Assembly (NCBI GenBank): GCA_024404815.1
Contig: JAKSPL010000010.1
Coordinates: forward strand, 1 to 62,457
Source of the DNA: Oscillospiraceae bacterium
GTDB taxonomy: Bacteria; Bacillota; Clostridia; Oscillospirales; Ruminococcaceae
Direction: 5' to 3'
DNA: 62,457 nucleotides
Shown piece after piece: positions 41,355 through 62,456 of the stretch. The notes under the pieces were generated by a model that saw nothing but the letters and a program-made list of their open reading frames with translations, had not been told where the DNA came from and ran no database searches. The position numbers and the translations under genes are program-made. Numbering within the stretch: position 1 is the stretch's first letter; each line of letters opens with the position of its first letter.

Positions 41355-44300
41355 TTATCTGCCGAAGTATCTGTCTGCTGCACAGCTGTACAGATACAAT
41401 GCTCTTGCAGTATTTGCGAGCTTGGTATCATAGCTATACTGACTCAATACCGTTGCCGCATAGCTGAGTGCGCTGTAAGTCACAGAATAATTGTAAGAGC
41501 CGTTTGTAAATTCGAATACATAGCTCTCATTGAGGTCTGCTGCACTGATATTGCTCAGTTCAACATAATAGGTCGTGCCTCTCTGCTGAATGGGAAGTTC
41601 CTGTCCATTGACAGTAACCTTCCAGCGAGCGATCGAAGAAGCATTGCCTGTGAAGAACAGACGGAGCGCGGTGTCTGTTTCCAGAACCAACGATGCGGAT
41701 TTCAGCGTAAACTGACCGCCGTTGTCACCGGAACGTGTCAGACGATAGTCCTCCAGCATCTCTACAGTCACATTTGCGAGATCGTCGCTGACAGGGAGCT
41801 TGTTTTCGGTATTGTAATCGAAGTAATCCTGTGCACAGCTTCCGAGATCCTGCATAGCTGCTGTGAGCTGGTGGAGTTCGCTCGAATACTGACCTGTGGT
41901 GTCGCCCTGTACTGCGCTCAGATAATCTGCTACACTATATGTAAAGCAGTTGTTGGAAATTGCCTTGCCGCTCATGTACGAAAGCGGAACAATGCCGTTT
42001 TCGCCTGTGCGGACCTGAAGTGTAATGTCATCTGTCATTTCCTTGACTGCGACAGAATATGTCAGCTTATATCTGCCGTCAGCTTCCGGTGTCAGAGTGC
42101 TGAGCTTCACTTTTTCGGTATTATCTCCGCTCGAAAGCAGGATATATGCCTTGCTGTCTTCAAGCAGTGCCTTCGGGATGTAGGTATAATAGTTGACGCC
42201 GATGGTACCGTTGAGTGTCAGAGTCGCACCGTGTAGGACAAACTTGTTCGATTTTGCCTGCCATGTGCATTTTGCGCTGCTGCTCAGCTGGTAATTTGCT
42301 GCATCTTTACCTTCCAGCTTGTTAGCTGTGGTGGTCAGATCGGTATAAACGCTTGTGGTGGAATCATTTGTGCAGACGACCTTGACATCATCGCCCTCGA
42401 CCAGATTGGTCGGACGTGCTGTAATGACTGCCTTGCCGTCTTCGCCCAGCGTAATGGCATCCGTACCTGCGGTGAAGTTCTCGCCGTCCATTGTACCCCA
42501 TTCCAGTTTCAGGGTTCTCGGCGAAATCTTTGCGGTAACGGCTCCGCCCTCGCCCAGCGTATAGTTTGCTGCATCTGCGCCTGTCAGTTTCGCGCCGAAA
42601 GTAACGGTTGTCGAACCGACAAGCTGATCTGCTGTACCGATGACGCTGTCATCGAGTTCGAGCTGTACATCATCGCCGTGGAAGAAGCCTTCCTCAGTCG
42701 GTGCGACCAGTTCTGCATTGGTGCAGTCGAGTGTCACATCATATGTACCGTCGTAGCTGCGCGATTCAGGTACAACGCCTGTCACAGAAAGCTGATACGG
42801 TTCTACGGTCACATGAATGATCAGCGTGCCGCTTGCGCCGCCTGCTTTGCCTGCTTCTGTCGGGCTGATGTTCAGCGTATAGTCACCTGCGTTTTCAGGT
42901 GTTGTGACGGGTTTGCCGTCCTTGTCGAGCCATTCGATGTCAAACCATGTATTGTCGCTGCCTGTGATTGCCTTGCCGTTCTCATCGAGGACATGGATCT
43001 TCGATGCAACAACAGAAAGTGCATCCGCATTGACAGTCGGGTTTTCGCCTGCTGCTGTCAGGAGTGTTCTGGTTTCTGCGTCATACGTCAGAGCCTTACC
43101 GTCTGCGCCGAGGAAGCAGCCCTTTGTGGTAACATCCAGATTCGGGACTGTCCACTTTGCATAGAGCGTGAGGTTGCGGCAAACCGCTGCCTTCGGATTG
43201 TAAGCTTCGGTCAGTGCTTCGTCTGCATACCAGCCTTCAAATTCGCCCCATTCGCTGACGGGTGTTTCGGGCATGGTGACTGCGGTGCCGAGGACTGTTT
43301 CTGCTTCTTCATTTTCCACATCATCCGCAATACCCATATCAAAGGTAACGTGCATGACATCGCCGTATGCGCCTGCTTCTGCGTATGCAACAGATGCGAA
43401 CTGTTCTGCGGTCAGGTCTTCGCCTACGGTAAAGGTCACATTGTACTTTGCGTCTGCGATGGTCTGTTCGCCGCGGAACGTATCAAGATTGGAAATGTCG
43501 TTGTTGGTGTTCTTTTCCGCAATGACATTGCCGTCTGCATCGTAGAGCACAACGCTGACATTGCAGAGATACTTTTCCTGCAGCGACTGGTTGGTCACTG
43601 CGGAAGAAACCGTAATTGTATTCTCACCGAATTCTGTAACGGTTTCCATGCCAAACGGGGTATACTCGTCGGTACGCATGGTTTCAACGACCACAGTACG
43701 ATTGACCATGCTGAATACGTTGTCTTCGGATTCCACAACAGCTTCCACATAAACCGGAATACCCTGTGCAGGAATCTCCTCTTCGGAGATATTTGCGTGT
43801 TCCATGATCTCCGCAACGGTCATCGTGACTTCCACATTGCCCATACCATCGTCGATATTGGTCAGCAGATCCTTATCGGAAACGACTTTTTCTTTGATGA
43901 GTTCTTTCTTTTCCTGATCTGCATAGACGCGGACAACGAGTTTCTTTTCAGAGGTTGCAAGCGGAATCGCTACGGTGTTGTTCAGCTGGAGGTTGAGCGT
44001 TCTGGTACCTTCATTTGCCTGCATATCATAGCCCAGTACTTCGAGCTGCGGAGCATCCAGACTGAGGGTGCCCTCTGCGGCTGCATCAGCATCGGTGGTG
44101 TTGTCTGCTGTGATATGGAAATCAATATCGCGGACTTTTTCGCCGACTTCGTACTGATACGGAACGAATACCGATTCGCCGGGGAGCAGCGGCTCATCCA
44201 GCAGAACTTCTTCTGTTTCGTTGTTGATACGGATCTTGTTGATCGGTGTGACGCCGTCGTTGGTCAGCGTCAGGAGCAGCATGGTATCCAGATTCGGGAT

Positions 44301-47300
44301 AACTGCATTCTTGTCATATTCTGCATTGTCAAGGGAGAGGTTTTCTTTGAAGGTAAAGCTTTCACTGTCGTACTTGGTCACAGCTTTTGCTGTTGTGACC
44401 TTCACATAGCCATCCTCGGTATTGCCTTCGAGTTCTGCAATTTTTGCTTCCAGAGCAGCATTGTATTCCTCGTCGGTGTTGTAGGACAAGCGGGAAACGA
44501 GCATTTGTCCTGCTGCCTCCGGTGTCACATAAACAGGAACCGATTCAAACTTTGTTTCAGTCAGCAGGAGCTTGCAGTCATTGCCTTCGCTGTCGCTCGT
44601 TGCGGTCAGCGCGGAAACTGTCAGGCTTCTGTCGTCAAGTGTCTTGACAAGCTGCGGAGGAGTCATACCCTTTGTGGTATCATCCAGTACAAACAGCTTT
44701 GCGCCGTAAACAGAGGTTTCAATGTAGTCAGTTTCGCCTTCGTCATTGAGCATTGCTTCTTTTGCAGACCAGAATACGCTGAAATCAGTAAGATTATCGC
44801 CGCCGCTGATCGTAAAGATGTCAGAGAGCGCAGTCGTATAGCCTGCCTTCGAAACGCATTCAGGGAATGCATTATCGAATGTACCGTCAGCCTGAATGCA
44901 CATCAGTTCGATGTCTCTTTCTTCCGTGTCGAACCAGCCGAGAACAAAGTTTTCGCCTGCTGTGGTGACTTGGAGATTGACTTCGTTGGATGCATTCATG
45001 GTCAAACGTGTCGGAACGGAAACCGTACCGTCTGCTGTCAGCATCGAGTAGAACACTTCGGTATTGTCGGTGCTTGTCTGAACGGTATAGGCAACAACTG
45101 TCGTACCGTCTTGGAGCATTGCGGTTTCGTATCCGGTAATGCCGCCGAACGAGCCGTCATACAATGTTGCAGCTTCGCTCCACTCAGTACCATTATAAAT
45201 GCTGTAAACGAGTGTTTCGGTGCTGTTGGCTTTCAGCGGATCTTCCGCATTGGTGGAGTAGGAATTCTTCCAGACTACAACCGCGTGGTCGCCGACACCT
45301 GCGATCGAAGGTGTCATATCCGGCTGGAAGTTGTTGGTCAGCTTCTGTGTTGTCCAGACGCCGTCGCGGTAGACAGAAACGATGGTTTCCGTCGAGTTCA
45401 TTGCGATCGCAAGGTCGTCCAGATTGACTTCTGCGGAATCAAGTTTTTCCTTGGTGGTTTCATTTCTCTGCTGTGTCCATGCAGCGTAGTAAACGCCGTC
45501 CGAACCGCTCAGAGCTGCATAATAATCGCCAAAGTTCTTGACAGTTTCGCCGTCTGCCGCAGCTTCCGGATTGCTGTCAACGAGTTCTTTTTCTGCTTCG
45601 GACATTTCATTGCCGTTTTCGGGGATCGGCTTCGAATCGCCGCCGTCCACGCCGAGGGTCTCGTCGTCCGCAGGTACAACAGAACCGCCGATCACGCCGC
45701 TGCCGTTTGCATAACTTGCAACATTGTTATCGAGGAAGAGAATCATCTGACCGTCTTTCGAGTATACAACGGATTCAATGGTATCCGAATCCATTGCAAA
45801 GAGATTCTCCTGCGGTTTTGCCATGGTACGCATCTTCGGAACTGTTTCCTGTACGGTATTCAGTTCAAGACGCAGGGTATTGTCGTCTGCACCGCTGATG
45901 CTCATGCTTTGCAGCTGATCCATCCGCGGGTTGTAGAACTGCGGCCTTGATGTTTTCTTGCCCGCATTGCTCCACAAATTCTGAATGTTCTGATACTGCT
46001 CATGTCCGATACTTGCAGATGCGCCGACTTCAAACAGCGTTGCTTCGTACCTGAACATCAGGCAGTGTGCTACAAACTTACAAGCGAGATTGAGATCAAT
46101 ACCCGCCTGCATACCATACTGGGTATTGCCGTCGCCGTAAATACCGATCAGCAATGCAAAGTCAAGAGAAATGCCGCCTTCGACCTCCAGACCGAACACA
46201 ACGCCGATCAGATCGCTGTCCGCACCGAGGCCGGCAAACACGCTCAAACCGAACTTCACACCGAGTCTGGTCAGGAATACGCCTTCTGTGTCCTCTTTCT
46301 TGTATTCGCCGATACCGTCCTTGGTGACAGCCGATTCATCGACAGTAATATACTTCTGTCCCATGCTGAGGCTTGCGCCGAGCATACCTTTGATCTCTAC
46401 ATAGATCGGGATGCCGGGGCCGACGAGCATGTTTTCTTTCATGATCTCTTTTTCTGCTTCGACATCGACACCGAGATTGAATCCCTTGTAGGAATAATCC
46501 CAGGTCTGCTTTTTCACATCATACTTGGCTTCCATGATGCCGTAGAGAACAGGGGTGATCTTGATCTTCGGATCGTCGTCGTCATCGTCCTCAGAGTCTT
46601 TGCCTTCCTCTTCATCCTTGTCTTGCTGCTCTTTTTTTCTGAACTCTTCTACGTAATCATTGAACTGATCACTGGTGAGTGAAGTACCTTCTTTCAGGTA
46701 GCCTGCGATGGTCGGATCCACTTTCTTGACTTCCGATTCGGTACCAGAGCCTGCATTGCCTGCGGTTGCCGTATCCGTCTTATTCAGGAATGTCTTTTTG
46801 GCTTCCGCTGTTGCAAAGCTGTCAACTTCGGAATCCTGCAGGAACTCGTCCATCGCATTGATGCCCATGAGGATCTCAAAGCTGGTCGGGTCTGCGGTCG
46901 GGAGAACCACACAGTTCAGCTGCATATTTACAGGGAATTTGCCATTGTTTATCAGCGAAAATACTGTCGAAGTGAATGAGGTGACTGCCTGACCTGCAAG
47001 ACCGTCCTGATTGAGCGCACCCAACGGACCGTTATCCATTCCAGTCAGCTGCTCTTGCAGTGTTTCCTGAAGTTCCCCAACCTCATCCGGATCGAGGTCT
47101 TCGATGATTTCGCCGTTCAGCAGGTTATAACAAACGTCGGAGGTATTCAATACGTTGCCCGAATACTTCGAACACAGCGACATCTGTGCATAATAATTTT
47201 CTTGGAGCCAGCTCAGCTTCTTCTCGTTGACTGTCATCACAAGGAAGTTGTTGAGTGTTGTCGAGAACGGATATACATATGAATAGTCATCCTGCATACC

Positions 47301-50300
47301 TGTTTCTGCACCGATCTCCTTGCGTGTCGAACGGTTGATGTAGCGGACATTCGCCTCTGCGCCGTCTGCGATTTTTGTCCGGCCGTTCTCCTTTGTGAGC
47401 AGGTCGTCCATGCCGTGGAATACGGTGGTGACCAGCAGACGAACTTCATCGCTGTTTGCGGTTCTGCCGATATATTCCACATCTTTGGAAACATCGGACG
47501 TCCGCTTGGAATTGCTGTAGTAGACTTCCTGAGAAAGATACTGAACACCGACAGGCGTTGAAGCCTCGTTCATGTGCATCGTTACTTCGCCGAAGTCCTG
47601 TGTGATCTCAAACGGAACCGTATAGTAGCCGTCCATCTCCGCTTCGAATGCGAATGCAGTAGAAGCGGATTCTTCGTTCTCGCTGTCCTCATAGATCTGC
47701 TGAGAATCGAAGTAAATGGTAAAGGTACCGTTTTTATCTGCCTGGAACTGAACGCCTTCCAGACCATTCGAAACGCCGTTGCCATCATCCGGTGTTGCCT
47801 TGTCGATCAGCAGGTCAGCTGCTTCCGCATACGTGCTGCGCTTCAGATCAATTCTGCCGTAGTCATCCTTCTTTGCGTTCTTGTATGCCGCACCGCGGAT
47901 GGTCACAGTCTTGTTCTTTGCTTCCGGAATGGTCACGAATACCGTATAACCCTTTTTGAGCTTGCAGAGGTTGACGGGATACAGCTCGTTCTTTGCTGCA
48001 TTGCCTGCGCCGCTCTTGAAATTGCAGGTTTCAAAAGTATTCTTATAGAAATATCTGCCCTGTTCCGAATAGGTGTACATGAGGCCGTTTTCCTGGAAAC
48101 CGTCCTCTTCATAAATAGCGATCTGTCCCTTATTGTTGGTCGTAAAGTTCCGTGTTTCGCCCTTGCCGTTGGTGTAAGTCACTGTTGTGGTCACCGCAGG
48201 CAGGAACTGGAACAGATACAGCTGCTGTTCCACATCGTCGATCGTGACATCGACTTCTGTGGTCATGCCGGTATTGGCATGGATCGCTTTGATGCTGCCG
48301 CTGCCGTCGCCGCTGCCCATCAATGCGAGATGCATATTCGGGATCAGAAGTTTTCCGTCATCTTCGATCTGATTGTTATCGCCGAACAGCGTGTAATACA
48401 GACCGGATTCCTTTTCGTTTTCCGCGTGGGTATCCTGATAGTACCACTTGATCACATCGGAGAGTGAACCGAATGCGCCGTTCTTGGTCGAAATGGATAC
48501 ATCGTCCACGAGGCGCAGTTCCTCTTGCAGCTGTGCCATGGTCAGCTTATCGGAAAGTGCGACGGTATGCTCGTTGGAGGACATATTGTCCTTTACAAAG
48601 CTGCGCTTGGACAGCGTATAGGACTCGCCGTCACCGACAATGTCGTTACCGATCGAAATTGTCATACTGCCGTCATTGTAGACATTCGCAATAGCAGATG
48701 CAATAGAATATGTGCCGTCCGCCGAATTTCTGCCGTTCAGGTTGATTACAAAATAATCTTTCAGGCTGCCATTCGGGATCGTCAGAACTGTTGTCGGGAT
48801 CGAAATCGTCATTTCATTGCCCGATGCAGCGTCCGATGTCAATGCGCCATGCATGACCTCAACATTGTCGCTCTTACGGACAACGCTGTATGTACCATTG
48901 AAGTTCTTCGCAGCGTCTACCGTATGATATTTGATTTCCAGACCTTGAGAGTTCAGGGTGTAGCCGTTCATTTCGCCAAAGACGAATTTCACGGGGCGTT
49001 CCACGACCTGAATCAAGGCGCTGTCGCTGTAATCCTGCTTGCCTTCCTTATTCTTTGCAAGCGATGCAGAAATAACAGCTTCATAGGAGAATCCGTTTTC
49101 CGAAGAAATCTTGGTCAGAACATCTTCCGGAATCTGGAACTTGGTCAATGTGTTCTGATAGGTACCAACATCCTCAGCCTCATAGATCGGGGTGTCGGAA
49201 ACACGGTTGCGGTCTGCATCCAGTTCGAAAAGCTGAACGCGGTACTTGGTTTCAGAAACACCAAAGAATGCTTCGTTTCTTCTTGCGATGTTGTTGCTGA
49301 ACAGAATTGCTGCGGTATCATCCTGATAGACCTGGATCTGCTTGGAAGCAGAAGGTACGATCAGATAGGTTTCGGAAGTTGCAGAGAGTGTGATGCTTCC
49401 GGATGTCAAAGTGACATAATCCTTGCCTTCCACCAGTGCATCGATCTCGCTCTGTGTTTTTGCCGTCATAGCAGCAGGGCTGTTGGCAACACGCAGCTTG
49501 AAGCAGATCGTGCCCTCCATGCTGTCGGAGAAATCCGTAACCGTCAGTCTGCCTGTACTCGGATCCACAGAGAACTCAACAGCACCGTCCAGATCGCCGG
49601 GCTGGATCACAGAGGTCTTGCCTGTGCTCTTGTCAGTAAATTCAGCGATCCAGTTCAATGCGGACGGCGTATCGTATCCTGTACCGCGAGTGACGGAATG
49701 AGAATAGCTGACTTCTTCGCTTCCGCTGTACCACGAAACGTCTTTTGTCGAAACCGTTTCATACAGCGAAGTCTTGCCGCTTTTCGTATTCCAGATGAGT
49801 GACAGCGGATATTCGCCGCCTGCCTCGGTAACTGCTTTCTGGTAAGACAGCTTGTCGATGAAGAAATCTCCGTCGTGATCCGCCTCATTGATAAACGGCG
49901 CGGTATATACATCGTGATTCTTTTCGAATGTACTATAATAGTTGGTGTACGGTGCGGTGCGGAACAAATCGAAGTATCTCCACGAACCATATGATCCGCC
50001 TGCTGTTTGGATGGCATCTTCTGCTGCCTGAATGGTCGATCTCTTCCAGTAGTGCATTGGGATACCGTTGAGCGAACCGCCCAGACTGTCGGACATTTCG
50101 AGCCAGCCATCGCTGTATTGCAGTCCGATCTGTTTCAGATCCATAGACGCATCCTTCGGAACGGACTCCGAACCGTAGGTCTTTCCGCTTTCCATGAGGT
50201 TGTCATCTGCGGTCTGCACCTTATACGTATTAAAGGCGTAATCACTCGTCAGGTTGTCATAGGATGTCAGCGGAATGTTGTACATCGGGTTGTAATAGAG

Positions 50301-53300
50301 ATAGACTCTTTCTTTCGCCCAGTCTGTCATTTCCGATGCACGGCTCATCATTTGGTCATAGCCTGCGCTCGGTGTGTAATAGACATCGCCTTTTCCGAGG
50401 TTCACCGATTTGGTGTTTTCCAGCTTGTCCATCTGATAGAAGAACGGAACAGTAGCCTTGAACGAATACGGGAACGCATAGTCTACTCTCGGCAGAGCAT
50501 ATTCCGCATTGGAATCGTCCAGATCATCTCCGGTCAGCGAAAAATCTCCGTGGAGATATGCAGTACCGGTATAGTCCACTCCGGGTGTGGTGCTCTCCAC
50601 ATAGAAATAGAGATAGTCCACTTCCTTCGGTGTACCGGTCACGACTTTTGCGTTCGGGTCTACCTGTCCGATCGGTTCCAGCGTATAGTGGCAGTACACT
50701 TTGGTATCCTGCATATTGGTACCGTCGTCCACATACATCGTCGGAACATACGACCGGCAGTTCTTGATAGAATCGCCTTCAACAGACAGTACGTTATCCG
50801 CGATCCACTGTTCTGCTTCCAGTGTCAGTCCCTTTGTGTCGGTTTTCATCGGGATCCGATACTCGATCAGCGTGCCGTTCATGAATCCGCCCTCGGTCAC
50901 TTCCGTCAGCGTCTTGGCAGATTCATTATAGACAAACTGCGATTTCTCGGTGACATTGGATTTTGTTGCTTTCGAGAAATCAAACAGATATTCCTGCATC
51001 GTTGCAAGACTTGTGGTATCATAGAACGGTTTCTCGTTCTCGTCATTCGACGGGAAATACTGTACGTTCGACTCAGCATCCACCACATTGAACGAAGAAA
51101 GATCAAACTGTGTGCGGCAGGTATCGTTATCGAAATACCAAAGGTTATTCACATCCGCGTTCTCCGGTGAATACATATGCCAGTATTTTTCATAATAGGT
51201 GCAATCGCCGTCTATAGGACTGGTGGACGGCACAAAGCTTTCATTGCAGCGGATAGATTTCAGCTTAAAATTCTTATCCTTGCCCACACGGAAGCGAAGA
51301 TACTGACAGCCGTCACTCGCCATCATCGTATCCTGCTCCAAAGTCCCATCATCCTCCTCTTGAAGATAGTGCACGGTTTCTCTCGCGGTACTCGCCTCAT
51401 AACTTACATTTTTGCCGCTGTCATCTTCGACTTCCAGTGTAAAGCAGCGTGCGATCGGAAGTTTATTGATGGATTCCTGGAATCTGGCACGATCAACGTC
51501 CACGGTGAATAGATCGTCATAGACGAGGTCACCTGTTTCGGGGACTTCTATCTTGTTGCCGGACTTGGTTGCTTCCAAGAACGTTACCTGAAAATCGCGG
51601 AGACCGGTGCTCAGGCTGCAATTATCTTTCATCTTGACCGTCACAAATTCGCCGTCATAGTCCACAGAATCCACAAAGAGATTGCCCGGGAGCTCCTGTG
51701 AAAGAATATATTCCTGCGTCCATTCCGCAGCCGGAGTTTCGTCGTCCAGATAGTAATAGTATGCTCCCGCTCCCATATGGAATTCAGCCGGGGTATCTTC
51801 GTATGCATACGGATTCTTAAAATAAGAGATGAAATAGCCGTATCCCGTAAACAGCGTAGACTGCGGATGCAGAATAAGACTCAGTTCGGTCGATGTGGAT
51901 GCTCTGGTCAATGTGCCTTCCGCAAGGTCCAGCACCATGACATCGTTCGAATCCGCATCATTGTGGAACCAGAATACATTTTCTTTGCTCTCGTTGCCGT
52001 CGAACATTGTAAATGTTTCCTTGTTCGTGCGTTTGGAATCGTCATCATACAAGCCGCCGTCGCTGACCACAGCAACACCTGTGCCGAGTGCCAGTTCGTA
52101 ATACTTGCCGTTCGCAGCCAACCGCACACGCATACCGTCCTCGTAATATCTTTGCGGAAGCGTATTGACATTTGGCGGATATGCCTGGCTCTGCTCCATC
52201 TGCCGCTTATTATGTCCCTCGATATCGACATCCATGTCGCCCCAGACATAGGCAGGAACCCGCGTTGCATCAGTCTGCCGGAACAGTGCATCTTCGTCAT
52301 CGTTTGTCAGATACTTCGAACTGATCGAAGGATATACATGGAGTGTCGCCGTACCGTAGTGCAGATTCTCCTTGTCGGATGCCTTAATATTCGTGTCGAT
52401 CTTCACATCCGGAGAATAGAGTTCCAGTTCAAATTCACGGTAGCAGTTTGTTTCCTCCGATTCGAAATACAGCTTGGAGCTTGACTTCAACGGCATCCAG
52501 CCTTCGCTGCTGTCGATCGTTTCGCCGTCTACGGTTTTCAGCTTGATACCGCTCATGCCGTCTACCACATGGATCTTGAAATAGACACGGGTGGTTCTGT
52601 CGGCAGAAGCACCGTCCAGCGATGCGGAAATCGTGAAATTGCCGTTTGTATTCATGATTGCGTCAGCTTTCAGATCGCGGTGAAAACGTGTCAGCTGAAG
52701 GCCTCTCCAAGACGTGATCGTGCTCGGTTTAAATTCCACCGTACCGAGTTCCAGACGCATTGTCGGCATAGTCCGCTCGAAAATCAGCTGGCTGCGGTCC
52801 GTTGACGCAATGATCTCGTCATCCACACGCGGCAGTTTGATCTGCGGATCAGCATCTGACTTCGGAAGAACCAGATTCTTTCCGTCATACTTAAACCGTC
52901 TGGAAACGTCGCGCTGCAAGCTTTGCTTCAGCTCATCGCGCGTCGAATCATTCAGGTCGATCTCGCCGCTTTTGATGCCCTGTGCGACCTTGCCGATCGC
53001 AGTCAGGTAGTCCTTGTACGTCAGCAGCAAGGCAACCTGCCCCCATGTGAGCATCTCTCCCTCTGCCATCACAGGATCTTCCGCACGATGCAGCGATATC
53101 ATTGCACGGAGTTCGTCTTCCGACACGTTTTGCCCGTCGATATTGTAGCCGGAAACAGGCAGAACGTCGCCGTTCTTGTCGATTACGCCCTGTTTGTACA
53201 GGGTGTAGAGCACTTCCTCTGCATCATACTGGTCGCCGCCGTATTCCTGTACAGCAGCAATCAGTTCCGCAGGGAATTTCAGCGAGGACATTTCCGCGGC

Positions 53301-53432
53301 TGCGTTCATTTCGGTTGCCATGACCTTGACCGCATCCATCGGGATATATCCTGCTGTCAGCGTGAGTGCAGCTGCAACAGAAACGACACGTTTCCATGAT
53401 TTTCTGTGCCTCTGCAAGTGTCTTTGCTTCAT
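41355..53432 (-). CDS. Giant secreted multidomain surface protein (4025 residues)
   Basis: The N-terminus (RKSWKRVVSVAAALTLTAGY) is a signal peptide with a long basic region. Most of the first 2200 residues consist of beta-rich segments without a family I recognise. An acidic stretch (SEDDDDDD) is near residue 2285. Residues about 2380-2475 alternate hydrophobic and Gly-rich strands (VGASASIGH), suggesting a beta-barrel-like region. Residues about 2600-2900 have repeating 'DGxxVVAYTVQ', 'VLGWFD' blades as in a propeller. An InlB/Flg_new repeat lies at about 3360-3430 (WGEFEGWYADEAL ... LYAKW), a YDG domain at about 3545-3630 (SRSYDGTYDVTL), and the C-terminal domain shared with the next gene from about 3732 to 4025. 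It probably acts in surface adhesion or substrate binding. One uninterrupted frame, which argues for selection. Confidence 0.8.
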   Translation of the reverse strand: MKQRHLQRHRKSWKRVVSVAAALTLTAGYIPMDAVKVMATEMNAAAEMSSLKFPAELIAAVQEYGGDQYDAEEVLYTLYKQGVIDKNGDVLPVSGYNIDGQNVSEDELRAMISLHRAEDPVMAEGEMLTWGQVALLLTYKDYLTAIGKVAQGIKSGEIDLNDSTRDELKQSLQRDVSRRFKYDGKNLVLPKSDADPQIKLPRVDDEIIASTDRSQLIFERTMPTMRLELGTVEFKPSTITSWRGLQLTRFHRDLKADAIMNTNGNFTISASLDGASADRTTRVYFKIHVVDGMSGIKLKTVDGETIDSSEGWMPLKSSSKLYFESEETNCYREFELELYSPDVKIDTNIKASDKENLHYGTATLHVYPSISSKYLTNDDEDALFRQTDATRVPAYVWGDMDVDIEGHNKRQMEQSQAYPPNVNTLPQRYYEDGMRVRLAANGKYYELALGTGVAVVSDGGLYDDDSKRTNKETFTMFDGNESKENVFWFHNDADSNDVMVLDLAEGTLTRASTSTELSLILHPQSTLFTGYGYFISYFKNPYAYEDTPAEFHMGAGAYYYYLDDETPAAEWTQEYILSQELPGNLFVDSVDYDGEFVTVKMKDNCSLSTGLRDFQVTFLEATKSGNKIEVPETGDLVYDDLFTVDVDRARFQESINKLPIARCFTLEVEDDSGKNVSYEASTARETVHYLQEEDDGTLEQDTMMASDGCQYLRFRVGKDKNFKLKSIRCNESFVPSTSPIDGDCTYYEKYWHMYSPENADVNNLWYFDNDTCRTQFDLSSFNVVDAESNVQYFPSNDENEKPFYDTTSLATMQEYLFDFSKATKSNVTEKSQFVYNESAKTLTEVTEGGFMNGTLIEYRIPMKTDTKGLTLEAEQWIADNVLSVEGDSIKNCRSYVPTMYVDDGTNMQDTKVYCHYTLEPIGQVDPNAKVVTGTPKEVDYLYFYVESTTPGVDYTGTAYLHGDFSLTGDDLDDSNAEYALPRVDYAFPYSFKATVPFFYQMDKLENTKSVNLGKGDVYYTPSAGYDQMMSRASEMTDWAKERVYLYYNPMYNIPLTSYDNLTSDYAFNTYKVQTADDNLMESGKTYGSESVPKDASMDLKQIGLQYSDGWLEMSDSLGGSLNGIPMHYWKRSTIQAAEDAIQTAGGSYGSWRYFDLFRTAPYTNYYSTFEKNHDVYTAPFINEADHDGDFFIDKLSYQKAVTEAGGEYPLSLIWNTKSGKTSLYETVSTKDVSWYSGSEEVSYSHSVTRGTGYDTPSALNWIAEFTDKSTGKTSVIQPGDLDGAVEFSVDPSTGRLTVTDFSDSMEGTICFKLRVANSPAAMTAKTQSEIDALVEGKDYVTLTSGSITLSATSETYLIVPSASKQIQVYQDDTAAILFSNNIARRNEAFFGVSETKYRVQLFELDADRNRVSDTPIYEAEDVGTYQNTLTKFQIPEDVLTKISSENGFSYEAVISASLAKNKEGKQDYSDSALIQVVERPVKFVFGEMNGYTLNSQGLEIKYHTVDAAKNFNGTYSVVRKSDNVEVMHGALTSDAASGNEMTISIPTTVLTIPNGSLKDYFVINLNGRNSADGTYSIASAIANVYNDGSMTISIGNDIVGDGESYTLSKRSFVKDNMSSNEHTVALSDKLTMAQLQEELRLVDDVSISTKNGAFGSLSDVIKWYYQDTHAENEKESGLYYTLFGDNNQIEDDGKLLIPNMHLALMGSGDGSGSIKAIHANTGMTTEVDVTIDDVEQQLYLFQFLPAVTTTVTYTNGKGETRNFTTNNKGQIAIYEEDGFQENGLMYTYSEQGRYFYKNTFETCNFKSGAGNAAKNELYPVNLCKLKKGYTVFVTIPEAKNKTVTIRGAAYKNAKKDDYGRIDLKRSTYAEAADLLIDKATPDDGNGVSNGLEGVQFQADKNGTFTIYFDSQQIYEDSENEESASTAFAFEAEMDGYYTVPFEITQDFGEVTMHMNEASTPVGVQYLSQEVYYSNSKRTSDVSKDVEYIGRTANSDEVRLLVTTVFHGMDDLLTKENGRTKIADGAEANVRYINRSTRKEIGAETGMQDDYSYVYPFSTTLNNFLVMTVNEKKLSWLQENYYAQMSLCSKYSGNVLNTSDVCYNLLNGEIIEDLDPDEVGELQETLQEQLTGMDNGPLGALNQDGLAGQAVTSFTSTVFSLINNGKFPVNMQLNCVVLPTADPTSFEILMGINAMDEFLQDSEVDSFATAEAKKTFLNKTDTATAGNAGSGTESEVKKVDPTIAGYLKEGTSLTSDQFNDYVEEFRKKEQQDKDEEEGKDSEDDDDDDPKIKITPVLYGIMEAKYDVKKQTWDYSYKGFNLGVDVEAEKEIMKENMLVGPGIPIYVEIKGMLGASLSMGQKYITVDESAVTKDGIGEYKKEDTEGVFLTRLGVKFGLSVFAGLGADSDLIGVVFGLEVEGGISLDFALLIGIYGDGNTQYGMQAGIDLNLACKFVAHCLMFRYEATLFEVGASASIGHEQYQNIQNLWSNAGKKTSRPQFYNPRMDQLQSMSISGADDNTLRLELNTVQETVPKMRTMAKPQENLFAMDSDTIESVVYSKDGQMILFLDNNVASYANGSGVIGGSVVPADDETLGVDGGDSKPIPENGNEMSEAEKELVDSNPEAAADGETVKNFGDYYAALSGSDGVYYAAWTQQRNETTKEKLDSAEVNLDDLAIAMNSTETIVSVYRDGVWTTQKLTNNFQPDMTPSIAGVGDHAVVVWKNSYSTNAEDPLKANSTETLVYSIYNGTEWSEAATLYDGSFGGITGYETAMLQDGTTVVAYTVQTSTDNTEVFYSMLTADGTVSVPTRLTMNASNEVNLQVTTAGENFVLGWFDTEERDIELMCIQADGTFDNAFPECVSKAGYTTALSDIFTISGGDNLTDFSVFWSAKEAMLNDEGETDYIETSVYGAKLFVLDDTTKGMTPPQLVKTLDDRSLTVSALTATSDSEGNDCKLLLTETKFESVPVYVTPEAAGQMLVSRLSYNTDEEYNAALEAKIAELEGNTEDGYVKVTTAKAVTKYDSESFTFKENLSLDNAEYDKNAVIPNLDTMLLLTLTNDGVTPINKIRINNETEEVLLDEPLLPGESVFVPYQYEVGEKVRDIDFHITADNTTDADAAAEGTLSLDAPQLEVLGYDMQANEGTRTLNLQLNNTVAIPLATSEKKLVVRVYADQEKKELIKEKVVSDKDLLTNIDDGMGNVEVTMTVAEIMEHANISEEEIPAQGIPVYVEAVVESEDNVFSMVNRTVVVETMRTDEYTPFGMETVTEFGENTITVSSAVTNQSLQEKYLCNVSVVLYDADGNVIAEKNTNNDISNLDTFRGEQTIADAKYNVTFTVGEDLTAEQFASVAYAEAGAYGDVMHVTFDMGIADDVENEEAETVLGTAVTMPETPVSEWGEFEGWYADEALTEAYNPKAAVCRNLTLYAKWTVPNLDVTTKGCFLGADGKALTYDAETRTLLTAAGENPTVNADALSVVASKIHVLDENGKAITGSDNTWFDIEWLDKDGKPVTTPENAGDYTLNISPTEAGKAGGASGTLIIHVTVEPYQLSVTGVVPESRSYDGTYDVTLDCTNAELVAPTEEGFFHGDDVQLELDDSVIGTADQLVGSTTVTFGAKLTGADAANYTLGEGGAVTAKISPRTLKLEWGTMDGENFTAGTDAITLGEDGKAVITARPTNLVEGDDVKVVCTNDSTTSVYTDLTTTANKLEGKDAANYQLSSSAKCTWQAKSNKFVLHGATLTLNGTIGVNYYTYIPKALLEDSKAYILLSSGDNTEKVKLSTLTPEADGRYKLTYSVAVKEMTDDITLQVRTGENGIVPLSYMSGKAISNNCFTYSVADYLSAVQGDTTGQYSSELHQLTAAMQDLGSCAQDYFDYNTENKLPVSDDLANVTVEMLEDYRLTRSGDNGGQFTLKSASLVLETDTALRLFFTGNASSIARWKVTVNGQELPIQQRGTTYYVELSNISAADLNESYVFEFTNGSYNYSVTYSALSYAATVLSQYSYDTKLANTARALYLYSCAADRYFGR

Positions 53433-55957: not shown

Positions 55958-56003
55958 TTTCAATGTACAGATGATACACAATCAATCGAAAGGAAGAAAC
56001 ACA

Positions 56004-56774
56004 ATGAAAATCAACATCAAGAACACCAAACTGCTCGCCGCTTCGCTCTCTGAACTGGATAGTCTTACGAACGGCACATTGACGCTCACACGAAAGATAC
56101 AGGAGTCGCTGCGTGCTCTGAATCCAAACTGTACGAACGACGACATCTCTCAGGCACAAGTCTATTCCAACAATCTCAATCCGGATATTTCAACGGAATA
56201 TATTACCGTAAATATTGATGAATCGCTTCTTTCAGAGGCAAAAGCGATCATCGCCAAATACTATCCGAACACCAAAATCACCAATCCGTTTGTTATTCGA
56301 ATCGCGATCAACCGTTATATTTTCTCCCTGAAAAAAGTGCCGGCTCCCCCTGTCATAAACCATAACCAGAATATCCGGTGGGCTGACAACAACAACATCA
56401 CATATGATCCGATCATCTATACGCACGGACAAGAAGTATCGGAAATACGTGCAGTATACTGCATTACAAAAATATCGGGAAATCACGAAGAAACCTGTTT
56501 ATATGTCGGCAGATCAAATTCCATATACGGAAGAGTATTCATCGGCGACTGCCATATTGCCAGAATGCGAAACGGCACACATATCCCTTCTGTTCAGCAA
56601 GCCATACAGAATAAAGAACATCTGCATATCAAGATCCTTGAACTGGTGCCGCTACTGAACGATCATCCTGCAAAAGATGCACAGCGGCTTGCTTCACGCG
56701 AAAATTATTGGATCGACTACTATCAGAATCTGAATATGTGCTTAGAACAATATCCGGAAGGACGATGGAATTAA
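56004..56774 (+). CDS. Ribbon-helix-helix / GIY-YIG nuclease-like fusion protein
   Basis: A 256-residue protein. ATG 56004 follows AAAGGAAG; an upstream in-frame ATG overlaps the operator region. Residues about 75-115 have the pattern of a ribbon-helix-helix DNA-binding unit: a short strand (YITVNIDES), helix (LLSEAKAII), turn, helix (NPFVIRIAINRYIF). Residues about 160-250 match a GIY-YIG nuclease: AVYCI and CLYVGRS as the two strand motifs, an Arg on the next helix (SIYGRV) and the catalytic Glu in SRENYWIDYY. GIY-YIG enzymes cut DNA one strand at a time. It stands alone between its own promoter and terminator, next to a tRNA-Ser integration site. It may be a domesticated homing-type nuclease. 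Confidence 0.7.
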   Translation: MKINIKNTKLLAASLSELDSLTNGTLTLTRKIQESLRALNPNCTNDDISQAQVYSNNLNPDISTEYITVNIDESLLSEAKAIIAKYYPNTKITNPFVIRIAINRYIFSLKKVPAPPVINHNQNIRWADNNNITYDPIIYTHGQEVSEIRAVYCITKISGNHEETCLYVGRSNSIYGRVFIGDCHIARMRNGTHIPSVQQAIQNKEHLHIKILELVPLLNDHPAKDAQRLASRENYWIDYYQNLNMCLEQYPEGRWN

Positions 56775-56796: not shown

Positions 56797-56831
56797 AAAA
56801 AGCAGCCTGTAAATTTACAGGCTGCTTTTAT
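56797..56831 (+). terminator. Intrinsic terminator
   Basis: Perfect arms AAAAGCAGCCTGTAAA and TTTACAGGCTGCTTTT with a one-base loop, T-rich end; it abuts the tRNA fragment. Confidence 0.85.
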
Positions 56832-56891
56832 GGCGGAGATGGTGGGATTCGAACCCACGGGACGTGTTACCGCCCAAACGATTTCGAGTCT
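56831..56891 (-). pseudogene. 3' fragment of tRNA-Ser (CGA), attachment-site duplication
   Basis: On the - strand this reads from the anticodon loop (CTCGAAA) through the long variable arm typical of tRNA-Ser, a complete T arm (GTGGGTTCGAATCCCAC) and the acceptor 3' strand with encoded CCA. The 5' half (acceptor strand, D arm, 5' anticodon stem) is absent. The sequence rightward is unrelated, with only one or two stem bases matching by chance. This is the footprint of an integrase that recombines in the anticodon loop; the intact gene should be at the far end of the element. Confidence 0.85.
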
Positions 56892-56945: not shown

Positions 56946-57140
56946 CCGAGCGAAAAGCCTTGAAAATAAAGGATTTTCGAGCGATTATGCTCGAAAAACG
57001 CCGTGATTTCCGCAATGGGTTCAAGTAAGCGATTTTTCCGATTTTGGAAAGAACTGCGGAAAGAACGGAAAGAACAGAATTTAAGTGGCAATACACAGAA
57101 CAACTCCACACCGACAAATACTTTTTTGAGGTGTATTGCT

Positions 57141-57746
57141 ATGAAAGAAAGCGCAATCAACTGGGATGACATTCCCGATATTATCACAAAGGATCAACTT
57201 TATCAAATCTGTCACATCAGTAAATCAACGGCTCTGTATCTTTTGCGGAGCGGTAAAATCCCCTGCGAGTACACGGGCAAGCAAACACGGTGCTATAAAA
57301 TCAAAAAAGAGGATGTTATCGCATATCTGAAAGACCGTAAGGTTTTCCCGGAAAGCTATTCTGCCCCGGCAGGATGGTATAAAGGCAATTACGACTTAAA
57401 GATGCAGGAAGAGCTTCCGCCCGTTGCTGAAAATGAAATGCGGCGATATTATGCAGAACTGCTTGCGGAATATCCTGATGTGCTGACCACGTCCGAGATT
57501 GCGGTTATCACCGGGTACGGCACAACTTCCGTTAATTACTGGTGCAACAAAAATTACATAAAGCATTTCAAGCGCAACTGCGTCAATCACATTCCGAAGA
57601 TATACCTAATCGATTTCTTCTGTTCCAAACACTTTCGCTCCATCACCCGTAAATCCTCGTGGCACATCTACACCTTGCAGAGATTTTCACGCTGGCGTCA
57701 GATTCAGGATCTGCAAAACAAAAACGCTGACGGAGGTGTGGAATGA
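57141..57746 (+). CDS. Excisionase-like helix-turn-helix protein
   Basis: A 201-residue protein. Residues about 12-65 form a MerR/Xis-type winged helix (ITKDQLYQICHISKSTALYLLRSGKIPCEY ... KKEDVIAYL), the fold of recombination directionality factors. A second, related helix-turn-helix seems to follow at about 115-160 (LTTSEIAVITGYGTTSVNYW). ATG 57141 follows GAGGTG; the longer frame would start inside the border repeats. Its place as the first gene after an attachment site supports a role in excision control. The gene overlaps the next one by 4 bases. Confidence 0.7.
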   Translation: MKESAINWDDIPDIITKDQLYQICHISKSTALYLLRSGKIPCEYTGKQTRCYKIKKEDVIAYLKDRKVFPESYSAPAGWYKGNYDLKMQEELPPVAENEMRRYYAELLAEYPDVLTTSEIAVITGYGTTSVNYWCNKNYIKHFKRNCVNHIPKIYLIDFFCSKHFRSITRKSSWHIYTLQRFSRWRQIQDLQNKNADGGVE

Positions 57747-58045
57747 TGGCAAACTTTATCGAGGAATTGTTCTTTGGGAATATCGACCCGCAAGCACGGG
57801 GATATCGCAAAGGCTCTCCTATTATCAAAGTGTCGGACAGCATCAGCGAGTTAGAAGAAAAGCTCACCGAACGCTTAACCGGCGAGGAAAAGAAACTGTT
57901 TTTAGACTTCTGCAACGCATACGGCGAACTGATGGGAAATGCTGATCTCGATACTTTCATCGTCGGCTTCCGGCTCGGTGCAAAAATGATCTTTGATACC
58001 TTTTGCAGTGATGATGCTCCGTTTGAGGATTTTCTGAAAGAGTGA
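57743..58045 (+). CDS. DUF6809-like small protein of mobile elements
   Basis: A 100-residue acidic, mostly helical protein (MMANFIEELFFGNIDPQARG ... GFRLGAKMIFDTF). It matches the DUF6809 type common in conjugative and mobilisable elements of Clostridia, as I recall; function unknown. GGAGGTG lies just before, and the start overlaps the stop of the helix-turn-helix gene. Confidence 0.7.
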   Translation: MMANFIEELFFGNIDPQARGYRKGSPIIKVSDSISELEEKLTERLTGEEKKLFLDFCNAYGELMGNADLDTFIVGFRLGAKMIFDTFCSDDAPFEDFLKE

Positions 58046-58214: not shown

Positions 58215-58586
58215 ATGAAAACACTATTTGAACAAGCCGGCGGCACTTACACATTGCAGGGCGACTGCCGTCTGCCTAATCTCGAATTACCACCCGAAAA
58301 AGAACAGTATGTCGGCGTATGGGGACAACGCCGACTGCGGTACTTGAAACAGCATCATAAGGTTTTGTATTACAATCTGCTCACATCCGGCAAGCTCCGC
58401 TCACACCTTGCCGATACCGATGAGCAGGCACAACAACTTTTTCTTCGGTTAGTAAAAGAGTATGCCGCCAACGAAGGTATCACAGAGCAACTTAAAGCAA
58501 CCGATCCGATGGCGTGGGTGCAGCGGATGAATAACATCCGTGAGCGTGTAACCGAAACGGTCAACGCAGAGGTGGTGTTCGTATGA
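58215..58586 (+). CDS. TnpV-family transposon protein
   Basis: A 123-residue protein with the TnpV pattern: YVGVWGQRRLRYLKQHHKVLYYNLLTSGKL near the middle, then a helical C-terminus. TnpV proteins were named from Tn4451-type mobilisable transposons, where they are accessory and of unknown function. AAGGAGG precedes the ATG but lies in an inverted repeat. The stop overlaps the next short gene by 4 bases. Confidence 0.8.
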   Translation: MKTLFEQAGGTYTLQGDCRLPNLELPPEKEQYVGVWGQRRLRYLKQHHKVLYYNLLTSGKLRSHLADTDEQAQQLFLRLVKEYAANEGITEQLKATDPMAWVQRMNNIRERVTETVNAEVVFV

Positions 58587-58780: not shown

Positions 58781-60388
58781 TTATAGTGTTATTGATAAAT
58801 TACTTAGCAATTCACAAAAATCATTTACATATTCATCCGTTAGCATCTTACTTGCCGTGTGATCCTTATAATCAATGTGATGCAAGTCTGTCCTCGAATC
58901 ATACTTTCCCAATTCTTCCAATTTGAGGGTAGTTGTAAAAATCACTTGATTCGGCAAGGATTTATATAAGTCTAAAACAATATTCTCTTTCGTTGTTGAC
59001 AAATCTTCTGCTCTGAAAGAATCAACAACAATAGGATATGAGTGATCAAGAACTTTGCAAAGAGCTAAAAGACGGGACAAATGGAAGATGGTAGCTTCAC
59101 TACCTGAATAGACTTCATCTCTTTTTGTAAATAGATCATCAAAATGCAAATTACCATTTGGATCAATTTTTTCATAAACAGAATTCATTGTGTTCATTAC
59201 GGACACCAATACAGCAAGTTGTTGCTCTTTTTTGGATTGCGTTGTTCCTGTATTGATTTTTAGTTGATTTTTTAATGATTCTGTTTCAGCATCTATTTCT
59301 TTTATCTTTGCCTCTGCATCGGTGGCACTAAAAATATCTTGCTTATATGCAACAATAGCTTCTAATGAAATTGCATCATCGTCCATTAATGAATGCAGTT
59401 CATCTTGCGCCACGCTTATTTGAGCGGCAAGTTTATTTATTTCTTCAGTATACGCTTCAATTTTTTCGTTTATGGATGAAATGATCTCGTTTCTCATTTC
59501 AACGGACGATACATCAAAAGAATATGCATTCTTTTTAGAAGAACTGAATGATATGTTTGTTGAATCACAATCCATACATCTCAATTCGCCACATTCCATT
59601 GTGCGATTTAACGAACGCAACTCTTTTAATGTAGTCTCCCAACTTGCTTTTCTAGTGGCAGCCGCATTGCGAGCTTTTCTAAGTTCAGCAATTTTTGAGT
59701 TCACCTTGTCCATTTCCGACAGTTTCTTACTAAAAGTTGCTTTATCACTTATTGCACTCAAATAGTTCACGGGCATTTCTTGTGATTTTAGTATTTTATG
59801 CTGTTTAATCAGTAATTCACGTTCGGATTTTAGTGTGGCAAGTCGCTCGTTAATCTTTTTTATCTCTTCTTCATCAAGTTCTAATCCGCTTAGGTCGCAT
59901 ATATCAAAAAGCATATTATAAAAATCAGTTTTATTATAATAACCTGCGTGGGAAACATTAGATGTATCTTTTTTATCTTGCCCAATGAAGAAAAGCTGTA
60001 AAAACAAAACTGGATCGACAATTTTCGAGAGCTGGTTTTTTACAATTTTAGGAAGAGAGAATATGTGTTTGTTCCAGTATCGTTTCAATTCTGAAACATT
60101 ATCAAATAACATCAATGTTGAACCGTGTTTAAGTACAAAACCGTTATTGTATCTGCACAGATAGTATGTTATCTCATTAACTTCAAATTCTATGTAATGA
60201 TAGTAGTCTTTATACTCAAAAGTGGTTGGAAAAGCTGGGTCATTACCCAAAGCATACATCATAGACTGAATTTCGATAGTTTTTCCCTTATTGTTATCAT
60301 CGCTGGAAATAATGTTCAAACCAGCGCTAAAACCATTTTCAATAAATGCCTCATTTTTATTTCCTACGGCTGTCTTTTTAATTATCAT
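58781..60388 (-). CDS. SMC/Rad50-like ATPase of an ABC-3C-like conflict system
   Basis: A 535-residue protein. Near residue 25-35 is a divergent P-loop (SSDDNNKGKT) followed by a YALG helix as in DUF3732/DUF2326-type ATPases. Two long coiled-coil arms (about 175-260 and 285-390) flank a Cys pair (RCMDCDST, near 270) like a zinc hook. Near 450 a Walker B-like strand (PIVVDSFRAED) and then QVIFTTTLK close the ATPase. Family knowledge: such ATPases are the sensor or motor in ABC three-component and Lamassu-type systems. ATG 60388 is preferred because the upstream ATG touches its ribosome site; it overlaps the nuclease-like gene by 11 bases. Last gene of the operon. Confidence 0.75.
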   Translation of the reverse strand: MIIKKTAVGNKNEAFIENGFSAGLNIISSDDNNKGKTIEIQSMMYALGNDPAFPTTFEYKDYYHYIEFEVNEITYYLCRYNNGFVLKHGSTLMLFDNVSELKRYWNKHIFSLPKIVKNQLSKIVDPVLFLQLFFIGQDKKDTSNVSHAGYYNKTDFYNMLFDICDLSGLELDEEEIKKINERLATLKSERELLIKQHKILKSQEMPVNYLSAISDKATFSKKLSEMDKVNSKIAELRKARNAAATRKASWETTLKELRSLNRTMECGELRCMDCDSTNISFSSSKKNAYSFDVSSVEMRNEIISSINEKIEAYTEEINKLAAQISVAQDELHSLMDDDAISLEAIVAYKQDIFSATDAEAKIKEIDAETESLKNQLKINTGTTQSKKEQQLAVLVSVMNTMNSVYEKIDPNGNLHFDDLFTKRDEVYSGSEATIFHLSRLLALCKVLDHSYPIVVDSFRAEDLSTTKENIVLDLYKSLPNQVIFTTTLKLEELGKYDSRTDLHHIDYKDHTASKMLTDEYVNDFCELLSNLSITL

Positions 60389-61415
60389 TTTGAACACCAT
60401 CCTTTACTACTGAAATAAAATATTTCAATGATATTGCATCAAAATCAGGCGAAGCATTTCTTTTTTCAACATCCAGAGATTGATAAATTTGCTGAACAGT
60501 ATATGTGGGATTTGAAACTATTAAGGAATATATATTCTCGAAAAGTCCCCAAAATTCCGCTGCAGCATTTTTATTGAATAACGCCTTACATAATGTTTGA
60601 ATGCATTCGTCAAGCATTTCTCGTTGTTTTTCAGGAACCCACGTTGAATAAATGGGGATAAATGATGGGGGCACACTACTTTTTTCTACCGGATTGCGGT
60701 TAATGATTCGATTAAGAGTCATCAGCCTGATTTCATTATTTGTTAAATGACGACAGTATTTTAATACTTCGTCTGTTGTTTGAATTACGACTCCTTCCAC
60801 AACCGTATTTTTTAATTCCGACTGAGCATTTCTGATTTCATTAAATATGGCATTAAGGATTTTTTCTTCAGGAATTATCGCAGGATGGTCTTTGATGATT
60901 GCTTTGACATATTCACTGGACGGTTTATCATCGACAACAAAAAGAACCTTTTTCAAAAATTCATCAATATTCTCATCTGTCACATCGAAATCGTTTATGT
61001 ACGTTTTGTCAAGGGCTTCTTTTTTTAGACCCTCTTTTACTTTAATTAATGCCGAATCTTGAATGTTAGAAATGTCAAAAATATCTTTGGAATTATCCTT
61101 TCTAACAGTAGTGGAAACACCGCCCAAGAACAGAATATAATCCTTAAATTCAAAATCACTCAAGTAGTTTTTGAATAGTGTTACCATCTCTTTGCCTATT
61201 GCTGCCGGGGAATTATTTTTAGCTCCCTTTGATTGCATATCCCATAGATTTTCGGCAAACCTATCCATTCCGGTTAAATCATTAAAAAAGTCAACGACAA
61301 AGTAATGAATATCATTACTGTCACTTCTTAAATTCATTAAATATAGAAGTGCTTTTGTCTCATATTCAGCACCAGAACTTCTGGTTCGTTCACTTGATCT
61401 AACCGTGTAAGGCAT
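60378..61415 (-). CDS. Restriction-endonuclease-like (DUF4297/Cap4-like) protein
   Basis: A 345-residue protein. The start (SSGAEYETKALLYLMNL) followed by VVDFFNDLTGMD, WDMQSKG and then an alpha-helix and FKDYILFLGG strand fits the N-terminal nuclease of the DUF4297/Cap4 type, with Asp and a Q-x-K active site. The C-terminal 200 residues are helical and may bind the ATPase. AAGGAGGG precedes the ATG. In known systems such nucleases are the DNA-cutting effector. The assignment rests on motif order and is not secure without structure comparison. Confidence 0.6.
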   Translation of the reverse strand: MPYTVRSSERTRSSGAEYETKALLYLMNLRSDSNDIHYFVVDFFNDLTGMDRFAENLWDMQSKGAKNNSPAAIGKEMVTLFKNYLSDFEFKDYILFLGGVSTTVRKDNSKDIFDISNIQDSALIKVKEGLKKEALDKTYINDFDVTDENIDEFLKKVLFVVDDKPSSEYVKAIIKDHPAIIPEEKILNAIFNEIRNAQSELKNTVVEGVVIQTTDEVLKYCRHLTNNEIRLMTLNRIINRNPVEKSSVPPSFIPIYSTWVPEKQREMLDECIQTLCKALFNKNAAAEFWGLFENIYSLIVSNPTYTVQQIYQSLDVEKRNASPDFDAISLKYFISVVKDGVQNDN

Positions 61416-61482
61416 ATAGACCCTCCTTGATTACAATTATTAAATTCTCAATACGAAATTACCGCCGTATAAAAAGCAATGA

Positions 61483-61809
61483 TTAAATGAGTTTATTCAT
61501 AATGATGTTAGCTAATATCGGGTCTTTTGGCGGTGGTTGCGGAATACTGAAATCATCAAAAGCACCTAACTTTTCAAGTTCCTGATATTCCTCCAAGCTT
61601 TTCTCACTCATTGAGCACCACATATTTTCACCATAAAGAATATTGACCTTTATTGCACTATCCTGCCGTTCTTGAACACCCTCATAGATGTTAATTCCAT
61701 CATTGAAAACAACACAGTAATCTTTACGAGCTTCTTCTGAAACCGTTCTCAAATCAAGGGGATCGTGTAGTATAGTAAAAGATTGAGTGTTTTCGCCTTG
61801 GGGAACCAT
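61483..61809 (-). CDS. Small unknown protein, possible middle component of the ABC-3C-like system
   Basis: A 108-residue protein, not recognised. It has alternating strands in the first half (CVVFNDGINIYEG, IKVNILYGENMW) and an acidic, Pro-rich C-terminal part (SIPQPPPKDPIL). TTAAGG precedes the ATG and overlaps the stop of the HEPN-like gene. Size and place between effector-type genes fit the small 'middle components' of ABC-3C systems. Confidence 0.5.
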   Translation of the reverse strand: MVPQGENTQSFTILHDPLDLRTVSEEARKDYCVVFNDGINIYEGVQERQDSAIKVNILYGENMWCSMSEKSLEEYQELEKLGAFDDFSIPQPPPKDPILANIIMNKLI

Positions 61810-61817
61810 TGTATTCC

Positions 61818-62297
61818 TTAAGGGGGGGTTTCATTAAGTATTTTTTCTTCATCATCTGCAAGCAATTTATGGACAGCACGAAATAATGCTTTATCGTGTG
61901 GCACAAAATCAAGTGTTATCTCTTTTGGAAGATGATCTTTGCACAGTTCTCGAATATGAATAATCTGTTCTTTCATTTGAACTGCAATTGCATCGATTTT
62001 GTCAAAAGATTGAGGAATATAACTATCATCCTTATGAGCGCTATTCTTGTCACGCTCTAAGTAAAGAAGATTCACTATCGGATCTTTTTCGCACAGGCTA
62101 CGCTTATCAGAAGTTTTCGGCGCAATTGTTTTATCAATAACCGCACAGCAGTTTATGTAGAATGTATTTCTCTTGCCATCTATCAATTCACGCAAATCAT
62201 AATACCGTAATTGATCGGCGTGCTTGGAAATGTACAGAATACTGTCAACACATTTTTTAGCATCAATCAAATATCTTGCAAGTTCCCATTTTTTCAT
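61818..62297 (-). CDS. HEPN-like protein
   Basis: A 159-residue all-helical protein. RDKNSAH near residue 82 gives the R-x5-H variant of the HEPN ribonuclease motif, on a helix after FYINCCAVIDK, as in other HEPN families. HEPN proteins cut RNA in toxin-antitoxin and abortive-infection systems. A run of seven G (+ strand, 61822-61828) at the 3' end makes the last residues sensitive to sequence error. The ATG directly follows the stop codon of the upstream membrane-protein gene, so translation is coupled. Confidence 0.6.
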   Translation of the reverse strand: MKKWELARYLIDAKKCVDSILYISKHADQLRYYDLRELIDGKRNTFYINCCAVIDKTIAPKTSDKRSLCEKDPIVNLLYLERDKNSAHKDDSYIPQSFDKIDAIAVQMKEQIIHIRELCKDHLPKEITLDFVPHDKALFRAVHKLLADDEEKILNETPP

Positions 62298-62456
62298 TTA
62301 TCGTGCCTCCCTTATCTTGTAAGCAACAAATAAATACAATGCAAAATAGGCGGCGGCAATTAAAACCATCAACCATACAGTCGGATATGCTAAACAAACA
62401 AGATAGGTAACGCCGGTGTTGATTGCATATATGATTGTAAAAAGGATTGATCCCCA
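62298..62456 (-). CDS. Membrane protein, 3' end only (continues beyond the window)
   Basis: In the frame that ends with TAA at 62298-62300, the sequence is open to the window edge and encodes two hydrophobic segments (ILFTIIYAINTGVTYLVCL and VWLMVLIAAAYFALYLFVA), then a basic end KIREAR. The hydrophobic pattern and the stop placed exactly before the next ATG make this frame more credible than the other open frame here. It may be the first visible member of the defence-like operon, for example a pore-forming or sensing part. Confidence 0.5.
   Translation of the reverse strand, partial: WGSILFTIIYAINTGVTYLVCLAYPTVWLMVLIAAAYFALYLFVAYKIREAR

Follow-up and report, generated by a model that had tools for sequence, protein, structure and literature searches.

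A PDC-M22 gene pair on an Oscillospiraceae island as a predicted two-component relative of Lamassu

At the right end of contig C2 of an Oscillospiraceae bacterium, five minus-strand frames encode proteins of 539, 345, 108 and 159 residues and, as an open frame of 52 residues, the end of a membrane protein; the window analysed here is this entire contig of 62,457 bases, from a draft assembly of 59 contigs that is 84% complete. We found that two of these genes, encoding the 345-residue protein A and the 539-residue protein B, constitute a PDC-M22 pair, a defence candidate catalogued earlier in PADLOC, and that the pair is most likely a two-component, type-I-like Lamassu relative without LmuC or a third component. 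The five frames are present as described in a first-pass annotation, which had taken them for a possible new variant of an ABC three-component or Lamassu-like system of five genes with two effectors. Overall, the identification is useful yet ordinary: a known candidate pair that had rightly been thought Lamassu-like had wrongly been stretched to five genes.

Two genes at the contig end form a PDC-M22 pair

Comparison with PADLOC-DB 2.0.0 identified A as PDC-M22A (E 8.8e-154) and B as PDC-M22B (E 1.7e-209), and the profiles cover the two proteins almost end to end, in adjacent genes, consistent with membership in PDC-M22. Since the pair had been listed in PADLOC beforehand, it is not a new variant. 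No Pfam or NCBIfam family scored above cut-off for A or for B. The two genes overlap by 11 bases at the start of B, whose frame opens at 60400 and whose start aligned with the family lies at 60388. Other PDC systems appear among the PADLOC predictions in PMC11514479, which uses the PDC names.

After PDC-M22B, the next PADLOC family for B was LmuB, the ATPase of Lamassu (E 5.8e-27). When a profile of 38 B proteins (L036, L042, L051, L063-L067, L069 and L071 being omitted from the alignment as partial, interrupted or duplicate) was compared with the PDB, the sole solved match at E <=0.001 was the LmuB of 9ux7/9ux8 (E 6.8e-10, positions 19-484), and the remaining 15 rows at E <=1 were unrelated chains with E from 0.0053. 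The profile matches between B and LmuB were reciprocal, and in alignment B has the nucleotide-binding loop in common with the LmuB of 9ux7, together with Walker B Asp-Ser and a hook region that contains two cysteines. The P-loop (DDNNKGKT) and CxxC motif that had been noticed in the ATPase were confirmed: B carries SDDNNKGKT and CxxC, and N32, N33, G35, K36, T37 and both cysteines are invariant in 38/38 aligned members. No member of the family (38/38) departs from NN-x-GKT, CxxC, SG or the Walker B Asp, the hook motif reads C-M/L-D/E/S-C, and Ser follows the Walker B Asp in 33 of the 38. In LmuB the Walker B Glu is generally changed to Gln, which the review PMC10586767 takes to suggest low or no ATP hydrolysis; by analogy, the Ser of the B family would fit this idea.

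The AlphaFold2 model of A (predicted local distance difference test, pLDDT, 86.3) has a PD-(D/E)xK nuclease domain of the Cap4/DUF4297 type, its top Foldseek matches were Lamassu LmuA, and VIA-align matched it to LmuA, HerA-DUF and Cap4. The D...QxK N-terminus seen at the outset in this protein corresponds to the catalytic-type residues D42, D46, D59, Q61 and K63, which are invariant in 38/38 aligned family members (L019, L048, L051, L057, L064-L067, L069 and L071 were omitted as partial, interrupted or duplicate). The nuclease fold predicted for A is thus supported by the model and both structural comparisons. By sequence, the A profile had no match in the PDB up to E 1. PHROGs gave only weak matches (E 0.01 or worse).

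The Lamassu superfamily is defined by shared LmuB in the review PMC10586767, and by this definition the A-B pair belongs to it: B is an LmuB-like SMC/Rad50-type ATPase, and directly upstream stands A, an effector whose N-terminal enzymatic domain models as PD-(D/E)xK type.

The pair recurs without a third component

With an alignment of four A proteins as the query, one genome from each species was scanned, and 42 A loci were returned, which is a lower bound because the scan works from short patterns. B lies directly after A in 39 of the 42 (in L036 just the start of B, at a contig end), and in the three loci without B (L066, L067 and L069) the A matches span 110, 175 and 130 residues, respectively. 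Both plasmid records matched by B carry the A-B pair; of two viral contigs, one carries it as well and the second ends within A. A search of phage records with A gave no match. By their labels, most of the 42 records come from Clostridia and Bacillales, together with a few Coriobacteriales-type and Proteobacteria records and one of Paludibacteraceae, and these mixed labels suggest horizontal transfer. Relatives from soil or the sea that carry an intact pair include Paenibacillus curdlanolyticus (L038) and Pontibacillus marinus (L043).

When frames from 46 fetched A loci were clustered with those of the window, A was present in 47/47 and B in 42/47 neighbourhoods, followed by a family found in six, the start of which resembles a serine recombinase by eye. 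No recurring small middle component was found around A-B and no third family extended beyond six of the 47 neighbourhoods, on which ground the proposed ABC three-component architecture was rejected.

Among 61 relatives, only the source genome matched. A search of 391 genomes of the class with the B model gave 15 matches at E <=0.001, and just the source genome and G203 scored better than 1e-200; the others had E from 8.1e-4 to 2.3e-17. Six LmuA-LmuB operons were inspected, and a PADLOC scan, which did not include L024 (ATPase interrupted), identified five from this weaker set as LmuA-LmuB pairs.

The pair lies on an integrated island

The integrated island proposed for these genes is real, since a transfer RNA (tRNA) gene, tRNA-Ser(CGA), is split between C2 and a second contig, C34. 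The boundary sequence in the window (Table 1) is identical to the last 60 nucleotides of the 91-nucleotide tRNA-Ser(CGA) of L086 and L088 and diverges from it at the anticodon arm, and the whole gene is present in 8/8 scanned loci of genus relatives. The 5' part, an exact match of 41 bases, was found at a single place, positions 70739-70779 of C34, and both parts contain the core GACTCGAAAT. The tRNA attachment site that had been placed beside the operon is this 3' part, and no complete tRNA lies near A-B, ARAGORN reporting tRNA-Ala at 9972 alone in the window. Beyond the 5' part, at this other end of the element, C34 continues inwards with a tRNA-Ser(CGA) that is complete but divergent; the 5' part and this copy together lie in L106:3740-4027, equivalent to C34:70739-71026. 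Further on, C34 encodes a tyrosine integrase, ParB, NikA/MobC-like proteins and an AAA_25 protein. Since the rest of the assembly yielded no full chromosomal tRNA-Ser(CGA), the element-borne copy may supply a replacement tRNA. C34 and C2 probably hold the two ends of one mobilisable element, whose cargo would include the PDC-M22 pair; we infer the link across the unassembled gap.

Between the island boundary and the operon lie three plus-strand genes (Table 1), one of them matching TnpV; the several TnpV genes initially reported were not found. Promoter-like sites numbered 14, against 15.9 expected from shuffles. On the non-island side, a gene (55971-56774) adjoining the tRNA-Ser remnant matched GIY-YIG weakly, at an E (0.029) that falls short of the curated cut-off. 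Further to the left, a single frame of 4,025 residues fills 41355-53432; it begins like a signal peptide and was judged by eye to encode a giant surface protein.

Table 1. Features at the right end of the 62,457-base window
Feature	Position	Strand	Basis
tRNA-Ser(CGA) 3' part, integrated-element boundary, core 56881-56890	56831-56890	-	Identity to tRNA of L086 and L088
HTH_17 gene, between island boundary and operon	57003-57746	+	Pfam E 4.1e-12
DUF6809 gene, between island boundary and operon	57743-58045	+	Pfam E 4.7e-22
TnpV gene, between island boundary and operon	58215-58586	+	Pfam E 1.1e-44
B, LmuB-like coiled-coil ATPase, PDC-M22B, 539 residues	58781-60388	-	PADLOC, profile match to solved LmuB, family alignment
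A, predicted nuclease effector, PDC-M22A, PD-(D/E)xK domain with D-x-QSK, 345 residues	60378-61415	-	PADLOC, AlphaFold2 model, Foldseek and VIA-align
108-residue frame, rear portion of interrupted HEPN-like gene (passenger, outside the A-B system)	61483-61809	-	Identity to L027 protein
159-residue frame, front portion of interrupted HEPN-like gene, R-D-x4-H	61818-62297	-	Identity to L027 protein, motif
C7 run, site of frame change	61822-61828	-	Three-frame reading
Membrane-protein C-terminal end, truncated by contig end	62298-62456	-	Open frame, relatives in L027 and L078

An interrupted HEPN-like gene precedes the pair

The 159- and 108-residue frames upstream of A, which had been annotated as two genes, correspond to a single gene in relatives. 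As compared with a 272-residue protein of an IMG/VR contig (L027), the 159-residue frame is 71% identical to residues 1-159 and the 108-residue frame is 50% identical to residues 158-264, and one continuous frame spans both parts in L027 (272 residues), in genome G248 (L077, 273 residues) and in genome G252 (L078, 464 residues, with a C-terminus that differs from the other HEPN-like copies). In the window, three-frame reading showed that the frame switches inside a run of seven C. The 108-residue protein was therefore rejected as a component in its own right, since in these relatives it makes up the rear of the HEPN-like gene.

The HEPN-type motif recognized in the 159-residue protein is present as R-D-x4-H and is kept in 4/4 HEPN-like copies, in agreement with the published Rx4-6H (PMC3710099). 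Searches with the HEPN-like gene found no Pfam family at E <=1, comparison of the alignment with the PDB by sequence gave two matches, both at E >0.1, and the model from three sequences was poor (pLDDT 48.6). The membrane-protein end, an open 52-residue frame of a gene that runs off the contig, is 71% identical over 49 residues to a 111-residue protein of L027 and L078, where it precedes the HEPN-like gene as in the window; L027 and L078 are 95% identical here.

Outside the source genome, HEPN-like relatives were found in 3/391 class genomes (G248, G252 and, over 20 residues, G417) and in none of 398 phylum and 247 family genomes, draws that were not certain to include both G248 and G252. The search of viral contigs with the HEPN-like gene returned the L027 contig only; the 108-residue query had no match among viral contigs, and the 159-residue query none among plasmids. 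In L077 (1234-9905) the 273-residue relative is part of a type I restriction operon, with HsdM on one side and, on the other, a 215-residue protein that matched no Pfam family and is followed by HsdS and HsdR. L027 (3740-10476) contains a Fic/BRO-N gene and, by eye, ParB- and mobilisation-like genes, on account of which this 'viral' contig is perhaps an integrative element rather than a virus.

Decay, phase variation and an assembly error are all possible origins of the frame change in C7. We regard as rather doubtful the view that it is biological, with phase variation or frameshifting yielding a HEPN-only and a full-length product from a gene that is still active. The break does lie within a seven-base homopolymer with conservation on both sides, at the identities to L027 given above; however, the gene is a single frame in L027, L077 and L078, the observation comes from one assembly of one strain, and homopolymer sequence errors and gene decay are common. 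We conclude that the membrane and HEPN-like genes form a separate, frame-broken passenger cassette on the same island as A-B.

Discussion

We consider it likely that the PDC-M22 pair is a defence operon of an LmuB-like sensor and a nuclease effector, a type-I-like Lamassu relative of predicted activity. By analogy with Lamassu (PMC10586767 and PMC12409362), B would act as a dimeric ATPase of the LmuB/Rad50 type that restrains A until it senses aberrant DNA of an invader, in the form of ends, hairpins or replication intermediates, whereupon A would be released or rearranged. A would probably oligomerise, as LmuA does, LmuA being liberated and forming a tetramer according to work cited in the addendum of PMC12409362. 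The QxK nuclease domain of A would then cut DNA and thereby stop the spread of phage or plasmid, probably with the cell itself paying the price (abortive outcome).

Several results weigh against this interpretation. The LmuA families of PADLOC did not match A at E <=1, so that the pair is filed there as PDC-M22 and not as Lamassu, and the A profile aligned weakly with six LmuA proteins (probability 8.7%, E 0.0038, QxK unaligned). The Foldseek template modelling scores (TM-scores) of the A model were low (0.33-0.38), HerA-DUF ranked first by Z (12.2) in VIA-align, and the A-type nuclease fold is common to HerA-DUF, Cap4, Hachiman and Avs3 proteins too. Neither the name PDC-M22 nor any experiment on it was found in open-licence PubMed Central texts. 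At E <=1e-20, neighbour proteins matched 158 PADLOC models from 103 A-locus proteins and 76 from 93 controls, a tally of models and not of proteins, in which models are redundant and the controls also contain defence genes. The A-locus set comprised up to three of the longest proteins of 200-700 residues per locus (A, B, L018, L019, L051, L070 and L071 excluded), and the control set up to five of the longest proteins from each of 20 stretches, which were picked by hand in ten class genomes; nine of these genomes match the B model themselves.

It is unlikely that A and B serve a house-keeping role, in DNA repair or anti-plasmid activity (SbcCD-like processing) and not in phage defence. B does group with Rad50-like ATPases, and A-B pairs also occur on plasmids; against such a role stand the patchy occurrence of the pair (1/61 relatives and, at full strength, 2/391 class genomes), its location on a mobile island and the close LmuB match of B.

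It appears very improbable that all these genes form one composite system, with the membrane and HEPN-like proteins as a second, RNA-cutting arm of the Lamassu-like pair. The genes share a strand and are tightly spaced, with 67 bases from the 108-residue frame to A, but relatives of the 108-, 159- and 52-residue proteins were found in 0/42 A loci (tblastn, E <=1e-3), 38 of which have at least 1.9 kb of sequence upstream of A; neither A nor B lies beside the HEPN-like gene in L027, L077 or L078 (10.5-16 kb each), and this gene is frame-broken in the window. Such absence of joint occurrence was what the first-pass annotation had itself named as a refutation. We therefore rejected the five-gene, two-effector system, and its composition is best read as a local coincidence. 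Equally remote is the idea that the two cassettes, joined on the island, provide layered defence, with a frame-switchable HEPN-like RNase as backup or restraint of the Lamassu-like DNA nuclease.

The identification of the A-B pair as a Lamassu relative ties PDC-M22 to two-component Lamassu with a solved LmuAB-DNA complex and so makes the mechanism testable by point changes at conserved residues. It also illustrates that adjacent island cargo and a frame break can mimic a novel multi-gene system.

With respect to known systems, no difference was seen from PDC-M22 as defined in PADLOC, the upstream HEPN-like and membrane genes lying outside it. The nuclease domains of Cap4, HerA-DUF4297, Hachiman HamA and Avs3 are partnered with other sensors and are not known to pair with an LmuB-like ATPase. 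The pair resembles Lamassu type II and ABC-3C systems (LmuABC, DdmABC) in its LmuB-like ATPase and nuclease effector fold, but lacks a recurrent small middle component (LmuC), and its A and B genes overlap. As compared with Lamassu type I (LmuA-LmuB; LmuAB-DNA complex 9ux7), A is unrecognised by LmuA profiles and weakly alike in profile comparison, and the hook of B differs from the CPxCG cited for LmuB in PMC10586767. In common with type I, the pair combines an LmuB-like ATPase with a CxxC hook region and Walker B Asp-Ser, has no LmuC, and places upstream an effector of comparable size with a predicted PD-(D/E)xK domain.

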